Positions 12,430 through 18,159 of a DNA stretch of 64,000 bases are shown one piece after another. A model generated the notes under the pieces. That model did no database searches. It had not been told where the DNA came from and was given only the letters and a program-made list of their open reading frames with translations. The stretch is from NCBI RefSeq assembly GCF_029961765.1, contig NZ_CP124681.1, positions 620,001 through 684,000 of the forward strand, read 5' to 3'. The DNA comes from Nocardioides sp. QY071 (GTDB lineage Bacteria; Actinomycetota; Actinomycetes; Propionibacteriales; Nocardioidaceae). The translations under genes were made by a program, and so were the position numbers. Each line of letters starts with the position of its first letter. The stretch's first letter is position 1.

Positions 12430-13032
12430 TCAGCCGACCTGCATGACGCGGGTGCCGCCCGCGAACTTGTCGTGCCAGCCCTGGTGGTTGGGCTGGTCGT
12501 TGTTGAGTGTGATCGCGATGTAGATCACCGCGGCGAGCGGGACCGCCCAGCCCAGGAAGAACCACCCGATGAACGGGATGATGCTGAGCAGGCCCAGCGC
12601 CGAGTAGGCGTTGCGCTTGATCGCCTGCTCCATGGTCGGCTTGCTGACGCCGTCGGGGCCGTAGGTCCGCAGCTTCAGCACCATCTTGCCGACGGTCTGC
12701 CCGGAGTTGGACTCCATGAAGGCGAAGTAGCCGAGGTAGATGGCGGCCTGGAGGATCGCGGTCACGGTCCAGAACAGGAAGTACTCGCCGAAGGAGTGGA
12801 TGAAGCCGGTCAGGAAGATCCCGCTGAACACCGCGTAGATGATCGCGTAGACCACGCCGAGCAGCACGTGGTCGATCAGGCGGGCCAGGAACCGGTTGAG
12901 CAGCTCGCCCGGACGCGGCACGCCGGCGGCGGTGCCGCCCGGCTGGGGCTGCGGCGGGCCGCCGTACCCACCCGGCGGGGGCGGCGGCGTACCGCCCGGC
13001 GGGGGCGGCGGGGGCGGCTGGTTCTGGGACAT
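12430..13032 (-). CDS. RDD family membrane protein
   Basis: A 200-residue protein: a Pro/Gly-rich cytoplasmic N-terminus (about 1-45, with polyproline runs) and an RDD domain with Arg-Asp in LNRFLARLIDHVLLG, then three to four membrane helices and the conserved SGQTVGKMVLKLR loop. The function of RDD proteins is poorly defined; some act in transport or Na+/H+ exchange, others are accessory. The start at 13032 is preferred because GAGGAG lies 5-10 nt upstream; a longer frame begins at 13083. Single gene, with no obvious operon partner. Confidence 0.85.
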   Translation of the reverse strand: MSQNQPPPPPPPGGTPPPPPGGYGGPPQPQPGGTAAGVPRPGELLNRFLARLIDHVLLGVVYAIIYAVFSGIFLTGFIHSFGEYFLFWTVTAILQAAIYLGYFAFMESNSGQTVGKMVLKLRTYGPDGVSKPTMEQAIKRNAYSALGLLSIIPFIGWFFLGWAVPLAAVIYIAITLNNDQPNHQGWHDKFAGGTRVMQVG

Positions 13033-13171
13033 GCGAGCTCCTCGGGTCATGGGGTGCGCGTGCGCACCCGGGGGTGGCAGCAATGTAGTGCGGAAAGGCG
13101 CCTCCGAGTCGGCATTGCGAGCGTTCTTGCCCCGTTGTCCCGACGTTCAACCCACTGCCGTCGCGCGCCCC

Positions 13172-13177
13172 TACCTT
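13172..13177 (+). promoter_or_regulatory. -10 element, leaderless promoter
   Basis: TACCTT ends 6 nt before the GTG at 13184 of the mannosyltransferase-like gene; there is no ribosome binding site in the gap. Confidence 0.45.
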
Positions 13178-13183
13178 GCGACC

Positions 13184-14722
13184 GTGATCGCTCGCGGAAC
13201 GCTCGGCAGCCTGCTCGTGCTGCTCGGCGGACTCGTCACCGCCACCCTCCCCGCCTCCACCCCGGTGCTGCGCATCGGCACCCTCGAGGCGCTGCGGGCA
13301 CACGAGGTGGGCCGGATGACCGGCCTGGTGGTGGTCCTGGTCGGCCTCGGCCTGCTCGCCAACGCCTGGCTGCGGCTGTGCCGCACGGTCGCGGTGGGCG
13401 AGCGCGAGACCACCGACCCGGTCGAGGGCGTGGCCCTCGCGCGCTTCGCCGCGATCGTGTGGACCGCGCCGCTGATGCTCGCCCCGCCGCTGTTCTCCCG
13501 CGACGGCTGGTCGTACGCCGCGCAGGGCAAGCTCGCGGAGGTGGGGCTCTCGCCGTACGTCGTCGGGCCGGGGGCGCTGGCCCCCGACACCTTCCTCCCG
13601 CTACCGGGCTGGATCACCGGCCCGCCGATCGTCCAGGCCGTCGACCCGCTGTGGTGGGACACCGCCACGCCGTACGGGCCGGTGCCGGTGTTCCTCGGCG
13701 CGATCGTCGCGGGCATCACCGGCAACCCGTGGATCCTGGTGATCGCGCACCGCGGGTTCGCACTGATCGGCCTCGTGCTGCTGGCCTGGGCGGTCCCGCG
13801 GCTGGCGGCGTGGGGCGGCGCCAACCCGGCCGTCGCGACCGCGCTGGTCATTGTGTCGCCGCTGATGATGGCCAACGGTGTCGCGGGCCTGCACAACGAC
13901 CTGCTCATGGTCGGTCTGATGGCCGCCGCCCTCGTCGTGGCCGTCGAGCGCGGCTGGGCCTGGGGCGCGGTGCTCGCCGGCGTGGCGGCGGGCGTCAAGG
14001 TGCCCGGAGGCCTGGTGGCGGTGGGGATCGTGCTGGTCTCGCTGCCCGTCGGCGCCGACCTGGTCGCCCGGCTGCGGCGGCTCGGCGCCGTCGGCGCGGT
14101 GTCCGTCGGCACCCTGGTCGGGCTCGGCGTCGCCACCGGCATCGGCAACGGCTGGCTGCGCGCGCTCACCGTCCCCGGCGAGGTCAACACCCCGCTGTCC
14201 GCCACCACCCTGGTCGGCGGCGTCCTCGACTGGCTGGCCCTGCATCTCGGCCTCGGCACCGAGCCCGCCCTGTTCCGCGACCTGGTCCGTGCCCTCGGCC
14301 TGCTCGCCTCGCTGGGCGTCGGCGCCTTGGTCGGGCTGCGCTGGCCGACCGGCTCCCGGCGTACGGCGCTCGCGGCCGTCGCCACCGTGGGCTCTGCGTT
14401 CGTGCTGCTCTCGCCGGTCGTCCACCTCTGGTACTTCCTGCTGCTGCCGCCCTTCCTCGCCACCCAGCGCCTCCCGCGCCACGCCACCGGAGCCCTCGTC
14501 GCCGTCTCGGTCCTGCTCGGCCTGGTCGCGCCGCTCGACTCCTCGCTGCACGGCGCCTACTACGCGATCGTGATCGGCTGCATGACCGTCGCTCTGCTCC
14601 TGCCGGTCCTGCTGCTCACCCCGCCCGCGCGCGAACGCCTGGCCCGCATCGTCGCGCCGCTCGCCCCTCCGCTTGTAACTAAGGGTTACAGCACGAAAAC
14701 CGGTGCGGGAACGCCCGGGTAG
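13184..14722 (+). CDS. Polyprenol-phosphate-mannose-dependent mannosyltransferase (MptB-like)
   Basis: 512 residues with about 11-13 hydrophobic segments, typical of GT-C glycosyltransferases that use polyprenyl-phosphate mannose on the outer face of the membrane. The first loop contains SRDGWSYAAQGKLAEVGLSPY, in which the Asp and Tyr resemble the catalytic loop of the MptA/MptB alpha-1,6-mannosyltransferases. Later motifs such as GLHNDLLMVGLM and VAAGVKVPG also fit that group. A role in lipomannan-like glycolipid synthesis is probable. The last 16 residues (from LVTKGY to TPG) are encoded entirely by the left inverted repeat of the element that begins at 14672, so the native C-terminus may have been altered. 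Confidence 0.75.
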   Translation: MIARGTLGSLLVLLGGLVTATLPASTPVLRIGTLEALRAHEVGRMTGLVVVLVGLGLLANAWLRLCRTVAVGERETTDPVEGVALARFAAIVWTAPLMLAPPLFSRDGWSYAAQGKLAEVGLSPYVVGPGALAPDTFLPLPGWITGPPIVQAVDPLWWDTATPYGPVPVFLGAIVAGITGNPWILVIAHRGFALIGLVLLAWAVPRLAAWGGANPAVATALVIVSPLMMANGVAGLHNDLLMVGLMAAALVVAVERGWAWGAVLAGVAAGVKVPGGLVAVGIVLVSLPVGADLVARLRRLGAVGAVSVGTLVGLGVATGIGNGWLRALTVPGEVNTPLSATTLVGGVLDWLALHLGLGTEPALFRDLVRALGLLASLGVGALVGLRWPTGSRRTALAAVATVGSAFVLLSPVVHLWYFLLLPPFLATQRLPRHATGALVAVSVLLGLVAPLDSSLHGAYYAIVIGCMTVALLLPVLLLTPPARERLARIVAPLAPPLVTKGYSTKTGAGTPG

Positions 14723-14740
14723 TAGCCGCAGCGCCCGGGT
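14672..14740 (+). repeat. Left 69-bp terminal inverted repeat
   Basis: From outside in: CTTGTAACT start, a GTAAC/GTTAC hairpin with a 5-nt loop (14675-14689), AAAACCGGT, and two CGCCCGGGT boxes starting 20 bp apart (14712 and 14732). It encodes the end of the mannosyltransferase-like protein, whose TAG is at 14720-14722. Confidence 0.8.
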
Positions 14741-14845
14741 GGTGATGGGACGTCATGTCGGATCGAGCGCCCGTCGTACACGGTCATCCACAGGCGCCGA
14801 TTGCCGATGTGTCGACAACGAGGTCGGCGGCAACCGTGCCCAGTC

Positions 14846-15895
14846 ATGCACCCTCGAGCCCTGGCGGCGATGGCCGCGAACGGTGGTCTGATCACTCGGC
14901 ACCAACTCCACGACCTGGGCATCGGCCCGGGCCAGATCCGGTCGATGCTGCGCCGCCGCCGAGGCGAGCTGGAACCCCGTCTGCGCGTTCTCCGTCGCGG
15001 CATCTACACGACCACCGAGATCTGGAATGCTCTCGATGCGTACGTCGGCCAGCCGCTGCTCCTCGCGCGTGCAGCCGGGCTCGCCGCCAAGCGCGACTGG
15101 GTGCTGAGCCACGACTCGTCCTGCCACCTCCAGAAGCTTCCGATGCTTCGTCCGGAGGTGCCGCTGGTCCATCTCACCCGCCCCGGCTGGACGAATGCCT
15201 GGACGGAGTACGGCATCAAGCACCACCTGGCGAGGTTCGCTGGCGAGCAGGTGGTCGTCGTGGACGGACTCCGCGCCCTCGACCTTCCCCGCACTGCCGT
15301 CGACGTCGCCCGGGAGCACGGGTTCCGCCACGGCCTGGTGGCCTGTGACGCGGCGATGAGGCGGGGAGTCAGCCGTGCCGAGTTCTGGAGTGCGGTCGAG
15401 ATCATGACGAACTGGCCCGGCGTGAAGGACGCACGACTCGCTGTGGCCCTGGCCGATCCGGGTGCGGAGAGCGTCCTGGAGACCTTGGCGCGCGAACTGG
15501 TGATCGAGTCCGGGATCGGTGATCCGGAGACGCAGTTCCCGGTGCGTACGACGCGAGGCGTGGCGTGGTGCGACCTGCGGGTCGGCAACCTGATGATCGA
15601 GGCAGATGGTGAGGTCAAGTACCTCGACCAGGAGGACGGCGGGCTGTCGAGCGACCCGCGGCAGACGTGGTTCGACGAGAAGGTCAGGGAGCGGGCGGTC
15701 ACCGACCGTGGGCTCGTCGTGGTGCGGGTCGTGAACGACGACATCTGGAAGGGGCGCCGCCGCGCGGAGGCGATCGACCGGATCCGACGCGCGAATGCCG
15801 AGGCGGTCCAGCGGTTCGGTGCTGAGATCCGCCCGGAGCTGGCTCGGGAGGCGGAAGAGCTCCGGCGGCAGTACGGCGATCGCCGTTCGGCCTGA
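14846..15895 (+). CDS. AbiEi-type HTH plus DUF559/PD-(D/E)XK nuclease-like protein
   Basis: 349 residues. The N-terminal 60 residues (ALAAMAANGGLITRHQLHDLGI, then RGIYTT) match the winged-helix start of AbiEi-type antitoxin proteins. The C-terminal part resembles DUF559/Vsr-like PD-(D/E)XK folds: Glu208 in a helix, Asp243 in WCDLRVG, and E252-A-D-G-E-V-K258, then strand VVVRVVND. No AbiEii-like toxin gene lies beside it, so a classic type IV toxin-antitoxin pair is not supported. The ATG at 14846 fits the family N-terminus. Codon use looks somewhat less GC-rich than the neighbours, which suggests transfer. The gene fills the space between the two inverted repeats. Confidence 0.75.
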   Translation: MHPRALAAMAANGGLITRHQLHDLGIGPGQIRSMLRRRRGELEPRLRVLRRGIYTTTEIWNALDAYVGQPLLLARAAGLAAKRDWVLSHDSSCHLQKLPMLRPEVPLVHLTRPGWTNAWTEYGIKHHLARFAGEQVVVVDGLRALDLPRTAVDVAREHGFRHGLVACDAAMRRGVSRAEFWSAVEIMTNWPGVKDARLAVALADPGAESVLETLARELVIESGIGDPETQFPVRTTRGVAWCDLRVGNLMIEADGEVKYLDQEDGGLSSDPRQTWFDEKVRERAVTDRGLVVVRVVNDDIWKGRRRAEAIDRIRRANAEAVQRFGAEIRPELAREAEELRRQYGDRRSA

Positions 15896-15902
15896 AGCGA
15901 CT

Positions 15903-15971
15903 ACCCGGGCGCTCTGACACCTACCCGGGCGTTGTTGCACCGGTTTTCGCGACGTAACACGTAGTTACAAG
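15903..15971 (-). repeat. Right 69-bp terminal inverted repeat
   Basis: Inverted copy of 14672-14740 with 13 substitutions. It keeps the GTAAC/GTTAC hairpin (15954-15968), the CCGGTTTT block and two ACCCGGGCG boxes 20 bp apart (15903 and 15923). It begins 7 bp after the gene stop. Confidence 0.8.
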
Positions 15972-15974
15972 GGC

Positions 15975-17096
15975 TCAGGCGCTGAGCACCCCGACCCGGT
16001 CGCCGGCATGCAGCGCCAGCATCCGGGCGACGGTGCGGTCCCAGCCGAACTGCTCGGCCCGCACCCGGGCAGCGGTACGACGACGCGACTCGGGCAGCGA
16101 GAGGAGCCGCAGCACGGCGTCGGCCAGCGCCTCGGGCGTCGGCGCACCCCACGCGCCGCACGAGGCGTCGACGAGCTCGCGGGCGCCGCCGCGGTCGGCG
16201 GTCACGACGGGGGTGCCGCAGGCGAGGGCCTCGAGGACGGCGAGGCCGAAGGTCTCGCCGGGGCACACGGACAAGGACACGTCCGCGGCGGCGAGCCGGT
16301 CGCGCAGGGCGGCCCGGCCGTCGACGTACCCGTGGAAGTGGACGGGCGCCCCGGCGGCGAGGGCCTCGAGCTCGTCGCGGTGCGGGCCCTCGCCGTACAC
16401 GTCGAGGCGCAGCGGGATCCCGCGCCGGTGCAGCTCCACGGCCGTCGCGACGGCCAGGTGCGGGGACTTCTCCCGGGACAGCCGGCCGGCGTGGACCAGT
16501 CGCAGCTCCCCACTGCCGCCGACCGGACGAGGAACGGGCCGGAAGGTCGCCAGGTCGACCCCGAGCGGCACCCGCGACACCGGGCAGCCGGCAGCGTCGG
16601 CGACCGAGCGGAACTCACCCTCGGCGTACGCCGACGTGACGACCACCGTGTCGAAGCTGCGCACGATCAGCCGGTTGAGCAGCCCGATCGAGACCTTCGA
16701 GGTGGTCTCGAGACCGGTGCGCATCGCGAACATGTCGCCCATCCGCTCGTGCGACAGCAGCACCGAGCGCACGCCGTTGCGTCGCGCCCACCACGCGACC
16801 GGAAGCAGGGTCAGCTTGTCGCTCCACTCGACGCTGGTCGGCGCGAACCGCTCCAGGACCTCGGTGACCCGCCACGGCTCGACGATCAGCCGGTACCCGC
16901 CGCCCACTCGCGGCGCGCGCACCTGGACGACGTCCCCCAACGGCGTCGTCCGTACGGCGTCGACCGGTCCCGGGATGACGAGGAGACGCTCGGCACCGGC
17001 GGCGACGTACCCCTGGCCGAGCTGCTCGATCGCAGTCCGCATGCCTCCCGAGGTCGCGCCGACGAAGTTGGCCAGCTGGGCGATCCGCACGGGCAC
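15975..17096 (-). CDS. GT4-family glycosyltransferase
   Basis: 373 residues with the GT-B fold. The N-terminus QLANFVGATSGGMRTAIEQLG is the usual acceptor-side start. LVHAGRLSREKSPHLAV opens the nucleotide-sugar domain, and GETFGLAVLEALACGTPVV supplies the E-X7-E pair (Glu281, Glu289) of retaining family-4 enzymes. It resembles GDP-mannose- or UDP-sugar-dependent transferases acting on lipid acceptors; the exact sugar cannot be told. With the convergent MptB-like enzyme nearby, a cell-envelope glycolipid or glycan pathway is plausible. The start is GTG at 17096, with a second GTG two codons later; no strong ribosome binding site is seen. Confidence 0.82.
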   Translation of the reverse strand: MPVRIAQLANFVGATSGGMRTAIEQLGQGYVAAGAERLLVIPGPVDAVRTTPLGDVVQVRAPRVGGGYRLIVEPWRVTEVLERFAPTSVEWSDKLTLLPVAWWARRNGVRSVLLSHERMGDMFAMRTGLETTSKVSIGLLNRLIVRSFDTVVVTSAYAEGEFRSVADAAGCPVSRVPLGVDLATFRPVPRPVGGSGELRLVHAGRLSREKSPHLAVATAVELHRRGIPLRLDVYGEGPHRDELEALAAGAPVHFHGYVDGRAALRDRLAAADVSLSVCPGETFGLAVLEALACGTPVVTADRGGARELVDASCGAWGAPTPEALADAVLRLLSLPESRRRTAARVRAEQFGWDRTVARMLALHAGDRVGVLSA

Positions 17097-17160
17097 ACCA
17101 TCGCCGGAACGGGTGAACCCTCGCCCACCTGCCGGTTGACGGGGGCGGAAGGATGGACGC

Positions 17161-18159
17161 ATGAGCAACCCGGAAGCCAAGCCCGACGAGGTGATCTGCG
17201 AGGGCCGGCAGGCCGCCGGCATCGAGCTGATGGAGCCGCGGGAGGTGCCGCTGGGCGGACCCCGCGCGATGCCGGTACGACGCACGCTGCCGCAGCGGCA
17301 CCGCTCGCTGATCGGGGCCTGGTGCTTCCTCGACCACTACGGCCCGGACCTGGTCAGCGAGAGCGGCGGCATGGAGGTCGCCCCGCACCCGCACACCGGC
17401 CTGCAGACCGTGAGCTGGCTGTTCACCGGCGAGATCGAGCACCGTGACAGCGCGGGCAACGTGGCGATGGTGCGGCCCCAGGAGGTCAACCTGATGACCG
17501 CCGGCCAGGGCATCAGCCACTCCGAGGTGTCGACGCCGGGCACGACGGTGCTGCACGGCGCCCAGCTCTGGGTGGCGCTGCCGGACGCCGCTCGCGACAC
17601 CGACCCCGGGTTCCAGCACTACGCACCGGCCGAGGTCGCCGGCGACGGCTGGCGGGCCCATGTCTTCCTCGGCTCGCTGCTCGGCGACAGCTCACCGGTC
17701 ACCACCTTCACGCCGCTGCTCGGCGCCGAGCTGGTCCTCGACCCGGGCACCACGCTGCGCGTGCCCGTCGACCCGGCCTTCGAGCTCGGCGTCCTCGTCG
17801 ACCTCGGGTCGGTGTCGGTGGGTGAGGTGGACGCGAAGGTCGCCGACCTCGCCTTCGTCCCGCCCGGCGGCGACGAGCTGGTCCTGGTCGCCGGCGACGA
17901 GGGGGCGCGGCTGCTGGTGCTCGGCGGGCCGCCGTTCGGCGAGTCGATCGTGATGTGGTGGAACTTCGTGGGCCGCACCCACGAGGAGATCGTCGCGTAC
18001 CGCGCCGCCTGGCAGCAGCAGATCACCGGCCCCGACGGCAACCTCGTCCCCGACAGCCGCCAGGTCGCGCCGGGCCGGTTCGGCGTCGTACCCGACCAGC
18101 CCCTGCGCCCGATCCCCGCACCCGGGCTGCCCAACGCCCGGTTGAGGGAACGCCGGTGA
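17161..18159 (+). CDS. Pirin family cupin protein
   Basis: 332 residues, double cupin. The metal ligands of pirins are all present: His76 and His78 in APHPHTGLQ, His120 and Glu122 in GISHSEV. The C-terminal half carries PPFGESIVMWWNFVGRTHEE, a typical pirin_C stretch. Family members act as quercetin dioxygenases or as redox-sensitive metal-binding modulators; which applies here is unknown. It is the first gene of a tightly overlapped set with LrgA, LrgB and a lipoprotein; its stop overlaps the next start as GTGA. Confidence 0.9.
   Translation: MSNPEAKPDEVICEGRQAAGIELMEPREVPLGGPRAMPVRRTLPQRHRSLIGAWCFLDHYGPDLVSESGGMEVAPHPHTGLQTVSWLFTGEIEHRDSAGNVAMVRPQEVNLMTAGQGISHSEVSTPGTTVLHGAQLWVALPDAARDTDPGFQHYAPAEVAGDGWRAHVFLGSLLGDSSPVTTFTPLLGAELVLDPGTTLRVPVDPAFELGVLVDLGSVSVGEVDAKVADLAFVPPGGDELVLVAGDEGARLLVLGGPPFGESIVMWWNFVGRTHEEIVAYRAAWQQQITGPDGNLVPDSRQVAPGRFGVVPDQPLRPIPAPGLPNARLRERR

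Follow-up and report, generated by a model that had tools for sequence, protein, structure and literature searches.

In a 64,000-nucleotide (nt) stretch of the Nocardioides sp. QY071 genome (NZ_CP124681.1, positions 620,001 to 684,000, here called the window), a gene of 349 codons plus stop is enclosed by two inverted 72-nt repeat arms (Table 1), and such arms recur elsewhere in the same genome as inverted pairs without a gene. The arms are 81% complementary without gaps and are the same feature as the 69-bp inverted repeats (56/69 identical) recorded in a first-pass annotation of this DNA, which had also described the inner layout that we see in both arms: a GTAAC/GTTAC hairpin (halves at 14675-14679 and 14685-14689 in the left arm, 15954-15958 and 15964-15968 in the right arm) and two CGCCCGGGT boxes spaced exactly 20 bp apart. 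The left arm ends 102 bp upstream of the gene, the frame of which is also open from an earlier TTG, and neither a transposase gene nor an AbiEii gene is present between the arms or adjoining them, in agreement with that annotation. The flanks of the gene score 41.2, compared with a null of mismatched flank pairs from 53 loci (the window locus among them) with a mean of 14.0, a 95th percentile of 19.0 and a 99th percentile of 76.4, the last being so high because related loci occur among the mismatched pairs; when random 1050-bp segments of the window were scored, 1/300 reached 25 or more, and the maximum of 41.2 was the unit's own value. The short end hairpin of the arms folds, and the stability of the whole folded arms is not unusual (z -1.4 and 0.07). 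The end motif and both boxes are retained in seven orthologous units (14 arms) with some changes, most of which are in L202 and L212.

Table 1. Features of the repeat-bounded gene unit and its neighbours, in positions of the window
Feature	Position	Strand	Basis or remark
Left repeat arm, 72 nt	14672..14743	+	recurs elsewhere in own genome
GTAAC-N5-GTTAC terminal motif, left arm	14675..14689	+	5-6 bp hairpin on folding
AAAACCGGT, left arm	14696-14704		sequence
CGCCCGGGT box 1, left arm	14712..14720	+	sequence
CGCCCGGGT box 2, left arm, 20 bp after box 1	14732..14740	+	sequence
Gene, 349 aa (amino acids), predicted AbiEi-like DNA-binding part and Vsr-like nuclease part	14846..15895	+	frame, fold, PADLOC, relatives
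AbiEi antitoxin fold (6y8q), residues 1-204	14846..15457	+	predicted fold
Nuclease fold like I-Bth0305I and Vsr, residues 205-322	15458..15811	+	predicted fold, D243/E252/K258 conserved
Right repeat arm, 72 nt, inverted	15900..15971	-	sequence
CGCCCGGGT box, right arm, gene-proximal	15903..15911	-	sequence
CGCCCGGGT box, right arm, gene-distal	15923..15931	-	sequence
GTAAC-N5-GTTAC terminal motif, right arm	15954..15968	-	sequence, folding
Left neighbour, GT87-like gene	12896..14722	+	below Pfam cut-off
Right neighbour, glycosyltransferase, convergent	15975..17285	-	Pfam Glycos_transf_1, Glyco_trans_4_4

The encoded protein is predicted to join an AbiEi-like DNA-binding part to a Vsr-like nuclease part. 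It has no match of its own in Pfam or NCBIfam, and both labels rest on PADLOC, relatives and the predicted fold, which bear out the helix-turn-helix/nuclease-like character given to it at first pass. Residues 1-204 are modelled as an AbiEi antitoxin (6y8q) and residues 209-322 superpose on 3r3p and 1cw0, the nuclease part being nearest to the catalytic domain of a homing endonuclease in the fold comparison. Its D-E-K motif (D243, E252 and K258) is conserved across 46 homologs, of which 44 match AbiEi_4 (E 0.1), and the HUH/Y1 transposase family (Pfam 01797) is not among the seven families matched by any of these homologs at the same threshold. The invariant histidines 109 and 127 stand 18 apart and the conserved columns contain no HUH motif; the predicted fold is not that of a RAYT (the tyrosine transposase associated with repetitive extragenic palindromes, REPs). 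Purifying selection on the gene is apparent from the ratio of nonsynonymous to synonymous substitution rates (dN/dS 0.11-0.20, 10 pairs of 5 orthologs). A distant paralog in the same genome (L033) matches DUF559, with an MTES_1575 match below the cut-off, and many relatives are called AbiEi family antitoxin in their source annotations.

The arms gave 50 matches in their own genome at E up to 1 (best 40 of 58 candidates scored), and the end motif alone was found 26 times in forward and 25 times in reverse orientation, with none in the reversed control; across genomes the end pattern was present in 6/96, again with none in the reversed control. Of the 25 loci in the resulting inventory, 21 are short pairs (72-227 nt), one is the 1298-nt unit and three have a single end listed; among the listed pairs only the gene unit exceeds 230 nt and has room for a gene. 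The CC..GG of the CGCCCGGGT box is invariant in 32/32 arms of the own genome. With at least 21 gene-less pairs elsewhere in the genome, the repeat is not private to this locus, and the transposase-less, REP/RAYT-like layout suggested at first pass holds, although the several repeat-gene-repeat copies looked for in one genome came down to a single gene-bearing pair for the window family. Pairs of this family seem rare in the middle of the chromosome, where between 1.75 and 4.02 Mb the matches listed (those with E of 0.5 or more left aside) are only the one at 2483735 and a single arm at 3353695, unlike the family of the paralog L034, which is spread throughout the chromosome.

We expanded the search to 96 related genomes, 48 of which, including 40 within the genus, contain a protein match at E up to 1e-20. 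A general palindrome pattern was found in 31/96 genomes, all within the genus, and never in the reversed control. In the 59 genus genomes, both gene and repeat are present in 30, the gene only in 10, the repeat only in one and neither in 18 (uncorrected for kinship); for five of the gene-only genomes (G040, G057, G044, G051 and G056) the flanking repeats are outside the reach of the palindrome pattern. When arms were used as queries, with at most 24 candidates scored per genome, flanking arms included and palindromes counted on both strands, 12 gene-bearing genomes gave 211 matches, and 150/150 of those listed come from the genome's own arm; the same queries gave zero matches in eight gene-less genomes. 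Flanking inverted repeats scored above the 95th percentile of the null at 45/53 loci. Gene and repeat are thus coupled across genomes, one gene to one repeat.

The spacing and conservation of the arms argue for a role as paired protein sites. Among the 15 long own-genome pairs, arm similarity is 75% from one pair to another and 74% between the two arms of one pair. The inner DNA of 43-85 nt is unrelated (local score 8.1 vs 7.6 when shuffled), and on that account we rejected an origin of the gene-less pairs as deletion derivatives of the unit. Leaving out the six pairs of 72-95 nt and the gene unit, the pair lengths cluster at intervals of about 10.5 bp (R = 0.90, in the own genome alone, n = 15, as well as with G034 added, n = 27); 10.5 was the best period scanned in both sets and 0/20000 random sets reach that R, the two sets not being independent because 10/12 G034 pairs are orthologous to own pairs. 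Of 20 fetched G034 loci, 11 match the flanks of 20 own loci, and in the 10 long orthologous pairs the arms are 83% identical vs 57% for the inner DNA, with length differences of 0-3, or 9 and 11 nt (where several ends fitted, the pair closest in length was chosen). The helical phasing places the arms on the same DNA face, and as arms and phase are kept while the inner DNA drifts, the two arms read as sites that would be held by protein on one face. With arms constrained and phased at shared sites, the system looks kept in place and not merely selfish, and the repeat sites look as though they are now maintained, i.e. domesticated.

On balance we favour a reading in which the protein of the single-copy gene holds the arms of the scattered pairs and would nick or cut there, thereby spreading and keeping the repeats in a domesticated system comparable to the REPtron. 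In this model the AbiEi part would form a single complex on the two arms through their boxes and end motifs, so bringing together the arms of each gene-less pair, and the nuclease part would nick or cut at the arms, upon which pairs might be copied or re-made at new places. As far as the cited accounts go, a REPtron is a mostly single-copy RAYT gene flanked by inverted repeats, with the same repeats scattered between genes, a repeat sequence tied to the gene lineage and no evidence of the gene itself moving, and RAYTs are the enzymes to which these accounts assign the short palindromic repeats of bacteria (PMC8266576, PMC2817692, PMC3733652). The window gene likewise lies between inverted copies of a repeat dispersed through the genome, but RAYTs are HUH tyrosine enzymes whereas the window protein combines AbiEi and Vsr-like nuclease parts, and its repeats differ in having no general GTAG head, in their length of 70 to about 230 bp and, within the window family, in the helical phasing of their pairs. 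The GTAG head is also absent from the consensus of 16 palindromes of G047, and in the window family GTAG falls inside the CCCGGGTAG box. We take the system to work like a REPtron built on an unrelated enzyme.

The likeness to other known systems is partial. Residues 1-204 share the fold and sequence of AbiEi with its N-terminal winged helix, as in the AbiE type IV toxin-antitoxin systems, where AbiEi is described as binding inverted repeats in its own promoter (PMC3985639), but there is no adjoining AbiEii nucleotidyltransferase toxin gene to form a bicistronic operon, and the window gene has an additional nuclease domain and repeats both on either side and genome-wide. The predicted nuclease fold and acidic catalytic residues resemble Vsr, I-Bth0305I and DUF559, although here they come joined to an AbiEi part and go with a repeat family, and no context of repair or intron homing was seen. 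Miniature inverted-repeat transposable elements (MITEs) also combine short elements that have inverted repeats but no gene with a relative that carries one, but in our case there is no DDE transposase, the scan showed no target duplication and the inner DNA is not shared. Among the matches listed in the open-access literature, none links DUF559 or AbiEi-nuclease genes to dispersed palindromes.

Several observations weigh against the REPtron-like reading. The long pairs of the own genome have no common inner sequence, because of which no recent copying is visible there, and constraint at shared sites is unexpected for purely selfish repeats. Neither the 134 copies nor the nine aligned G001 sites yielded a clean insertion at a defined target. 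With regard to the coupling, G051 has three arm matches in all and thus little dispersal, the gene match in G047, a genome with 31 palindromes, covers residues 7-207 only, and in G018, which lacks a gene match at E up to 1e-20, there are three palindromes, possibly remnants following gene loss. No observed score of the 53 loci exceeds the 99th percentile of the null, inflated as it is by related pairs, and 8/53 miss the 95th percentile (L035, L036, L086, L090, L095, L133, L134 and L139); repeats are otherwise visible at L035 and L036, missed because of a misplaced start of the open reading frame (ORF), and at L095, where the flank was cut at 400 bp. The flank score of a homolog from another class of the phylum (L278 in G135) is 17.8 and so also below the 95th percentile, and the search with the L033 repeat gave no match, its own flank likewise being unrecovered.

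The strongest rival is that the pairs serve only for the binding of a regulatory or architectural protein (as a terminator, insulator or nucleoid site), the nuclease being inactive on them and the protein never having spread them. Constraint and phasing of the arms at orthologous places would suit this, as would the reported repression by AbiEi through inverted repeats (PMC3985639) and the placement of 20 copies in the own genome, of which 10 lie at convergent sites, 10 at tandem sites and none at divergent ones (crude ORF caller). We nevertheless consider it rather unlikely, as it does not account for the sharp-ended sites, which are inverted pairs of entire 72-nt arms and vary in presence between species, nor for a D-E-K motif conserved in 46 homologs and a gene under purifying selection.

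The presence of pairs differs between species. Ten G001 sites were searched and nine aligned with up to four related genomes (26 hits having loci), where some pairs are common to the species and others are absent or, judged by eye, have another palindromic sequence in their place; the exact empty-site junction was not obtained because the flanks are too diverged between related species. A different palindromic sequence seems present at the L189 site in G015, G039 and G052 and at the L184 site in G052, as if some intergenic sites were re-used by different palindromes. Several G047 palindromes (L139, L146-L165 set) are embedded in longer multi-copy repeats; identical G047 palindromes were dropped as candidate recent copies since they lie within such repeats, and therefore give no proof of a palindrome moving alone. 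A scan of the 134 copies for target duplications (offsets 0-4, lengths 2-9) gave no clear excess at 4-9 bp (highest z 1.8), while its top z values of 2.6 and 2.2 both concern 2-base duplications and fit a symmetry in the bases that immediately flank the ends, which was weaker under within-genome permutation. The gene unit itself holds a single locus within its clade, with no multiplication seen, so that the mobile gene unit of the first-pass annotation is not borne out and its interpretation as a whole is partly supported.

Spread in the manner of a homing endonuclease, where the enzyme cuts a target and repair of the break copies the pair in, would be consistent with the nearest fold of the nuclease part and with the lack of a 4-9 bp target duplication that stands out, but appears improbable given that the pairs have no common inner DNA and that no common target was recognised outside the ends, the systematic search for which was limited to the target-duplication scan. 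Still less credible is an origin of the pairs as miniature transposons that depend on an unrelated DDE transposase for their movement, with the gene as a passenger. Some DDE elements have TGT...ACA ends with repeated inner boxes, and the pairs share these traits; on the other hand, no listed own-genome pair carries a transposase (the sole one above 230 nt holds the window gene), the target-duplication scan gives no support, and the gene tracks the repeat over genomes and repeat families. A reading of the gene as an orphan AbiEi antitoxin next to its operator, with the second repeat due to chance or duplication, would fit the AbiEi domain seen by fold and PADLOC and the naming of many relatives as antitoxins, but is already disfavoured and highly improbable, with no adjoining AbiEii gene, a downstream arm in 7/7 orthologous units inspected and arms dispersed in the genome.

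Next we considered the paralogs and more distant homologs. Four paralogs in the own genome are each flanked by different repeats of their own, which were found at 27 (L034), three (L035), three (L036) and one (L032) further places (best 40 of 141 candidates scored). Matches were obtained in three of 149 genomes of the phylum, the own genome being one, and several distant homologs, also in two other Actinomycetota, have their own flanking and dispersed repeats: flank scores are 41.6 and 25.0 for L277 and L280 (both in G103, of the same class), and further repeat places number six for L277, eight for L278 and one weak for L280. By a narrow preference, we would extend the REPtron-like reading to orphan AbiEi-Vsr-like nuclease fusions in Actinomycetota, as owners of dispersed palindromes and not antitoxins, forming a repeat-keeping class of an origin independent of RAYTs, with several members able to operate in one genome and one repeat each. 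If true, this would be a second, unrelated kind of palindrome-owning enzyme, in Actinomycetota, and a gene set now filed as antitoxins would need renaming. The spread of such repeats and the reasons why hosts keep them would become testable, the helical phasing directly predicts a protein complex on two arms, and with a separate repeat for each gene lineage there would be many natural recognition pairs for comparison.

The repeat takes the form of a 70-72 nt palindrome in several other genomes, and the palindromes of G047 and G001 are unusually stable when folded (z -14.6 and -7.5). In 15 distinct G047 palindromes, 16 doubly changed cells were counted vs 7.3 when shuffled, while the number of pairs with a double change was not unusual (6 vs 4.9).

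With regard to the neighbourhood, both neighbours of the unit are convergent glycosyltransferase-type genes, and the open frame of the left one enters the left arm and stops inside it. These genes adjoin without the unit in G020, G009, G004 and G027 (58 genomes searched), and were not found by tblastn in the 1.5-2.5 kb flanks of more distant homologous units, so that the repeats do not always accompany them, an alternative which the first-pass annotation had raised. The 1.1 kb between the glycosyltransferase genes of G035 was rejected as another unit, as it holds an ordinary reductase-like gene, which from its translation we take to be an old yellow enzyme. The L034 family (L034, L176-L181 and the 27 further places) makes up a second set of palindromes that has an AbiEi-nuclease gene of its own; many of its copies are 85-94% alike, and it is the better subject for locating exact insertions. 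Finally, the paralog at C1:2401316-2402214 of the own genome (L036, L279, L281), which belongs to another repeat family, is split by a frame change, while its repeats persist.
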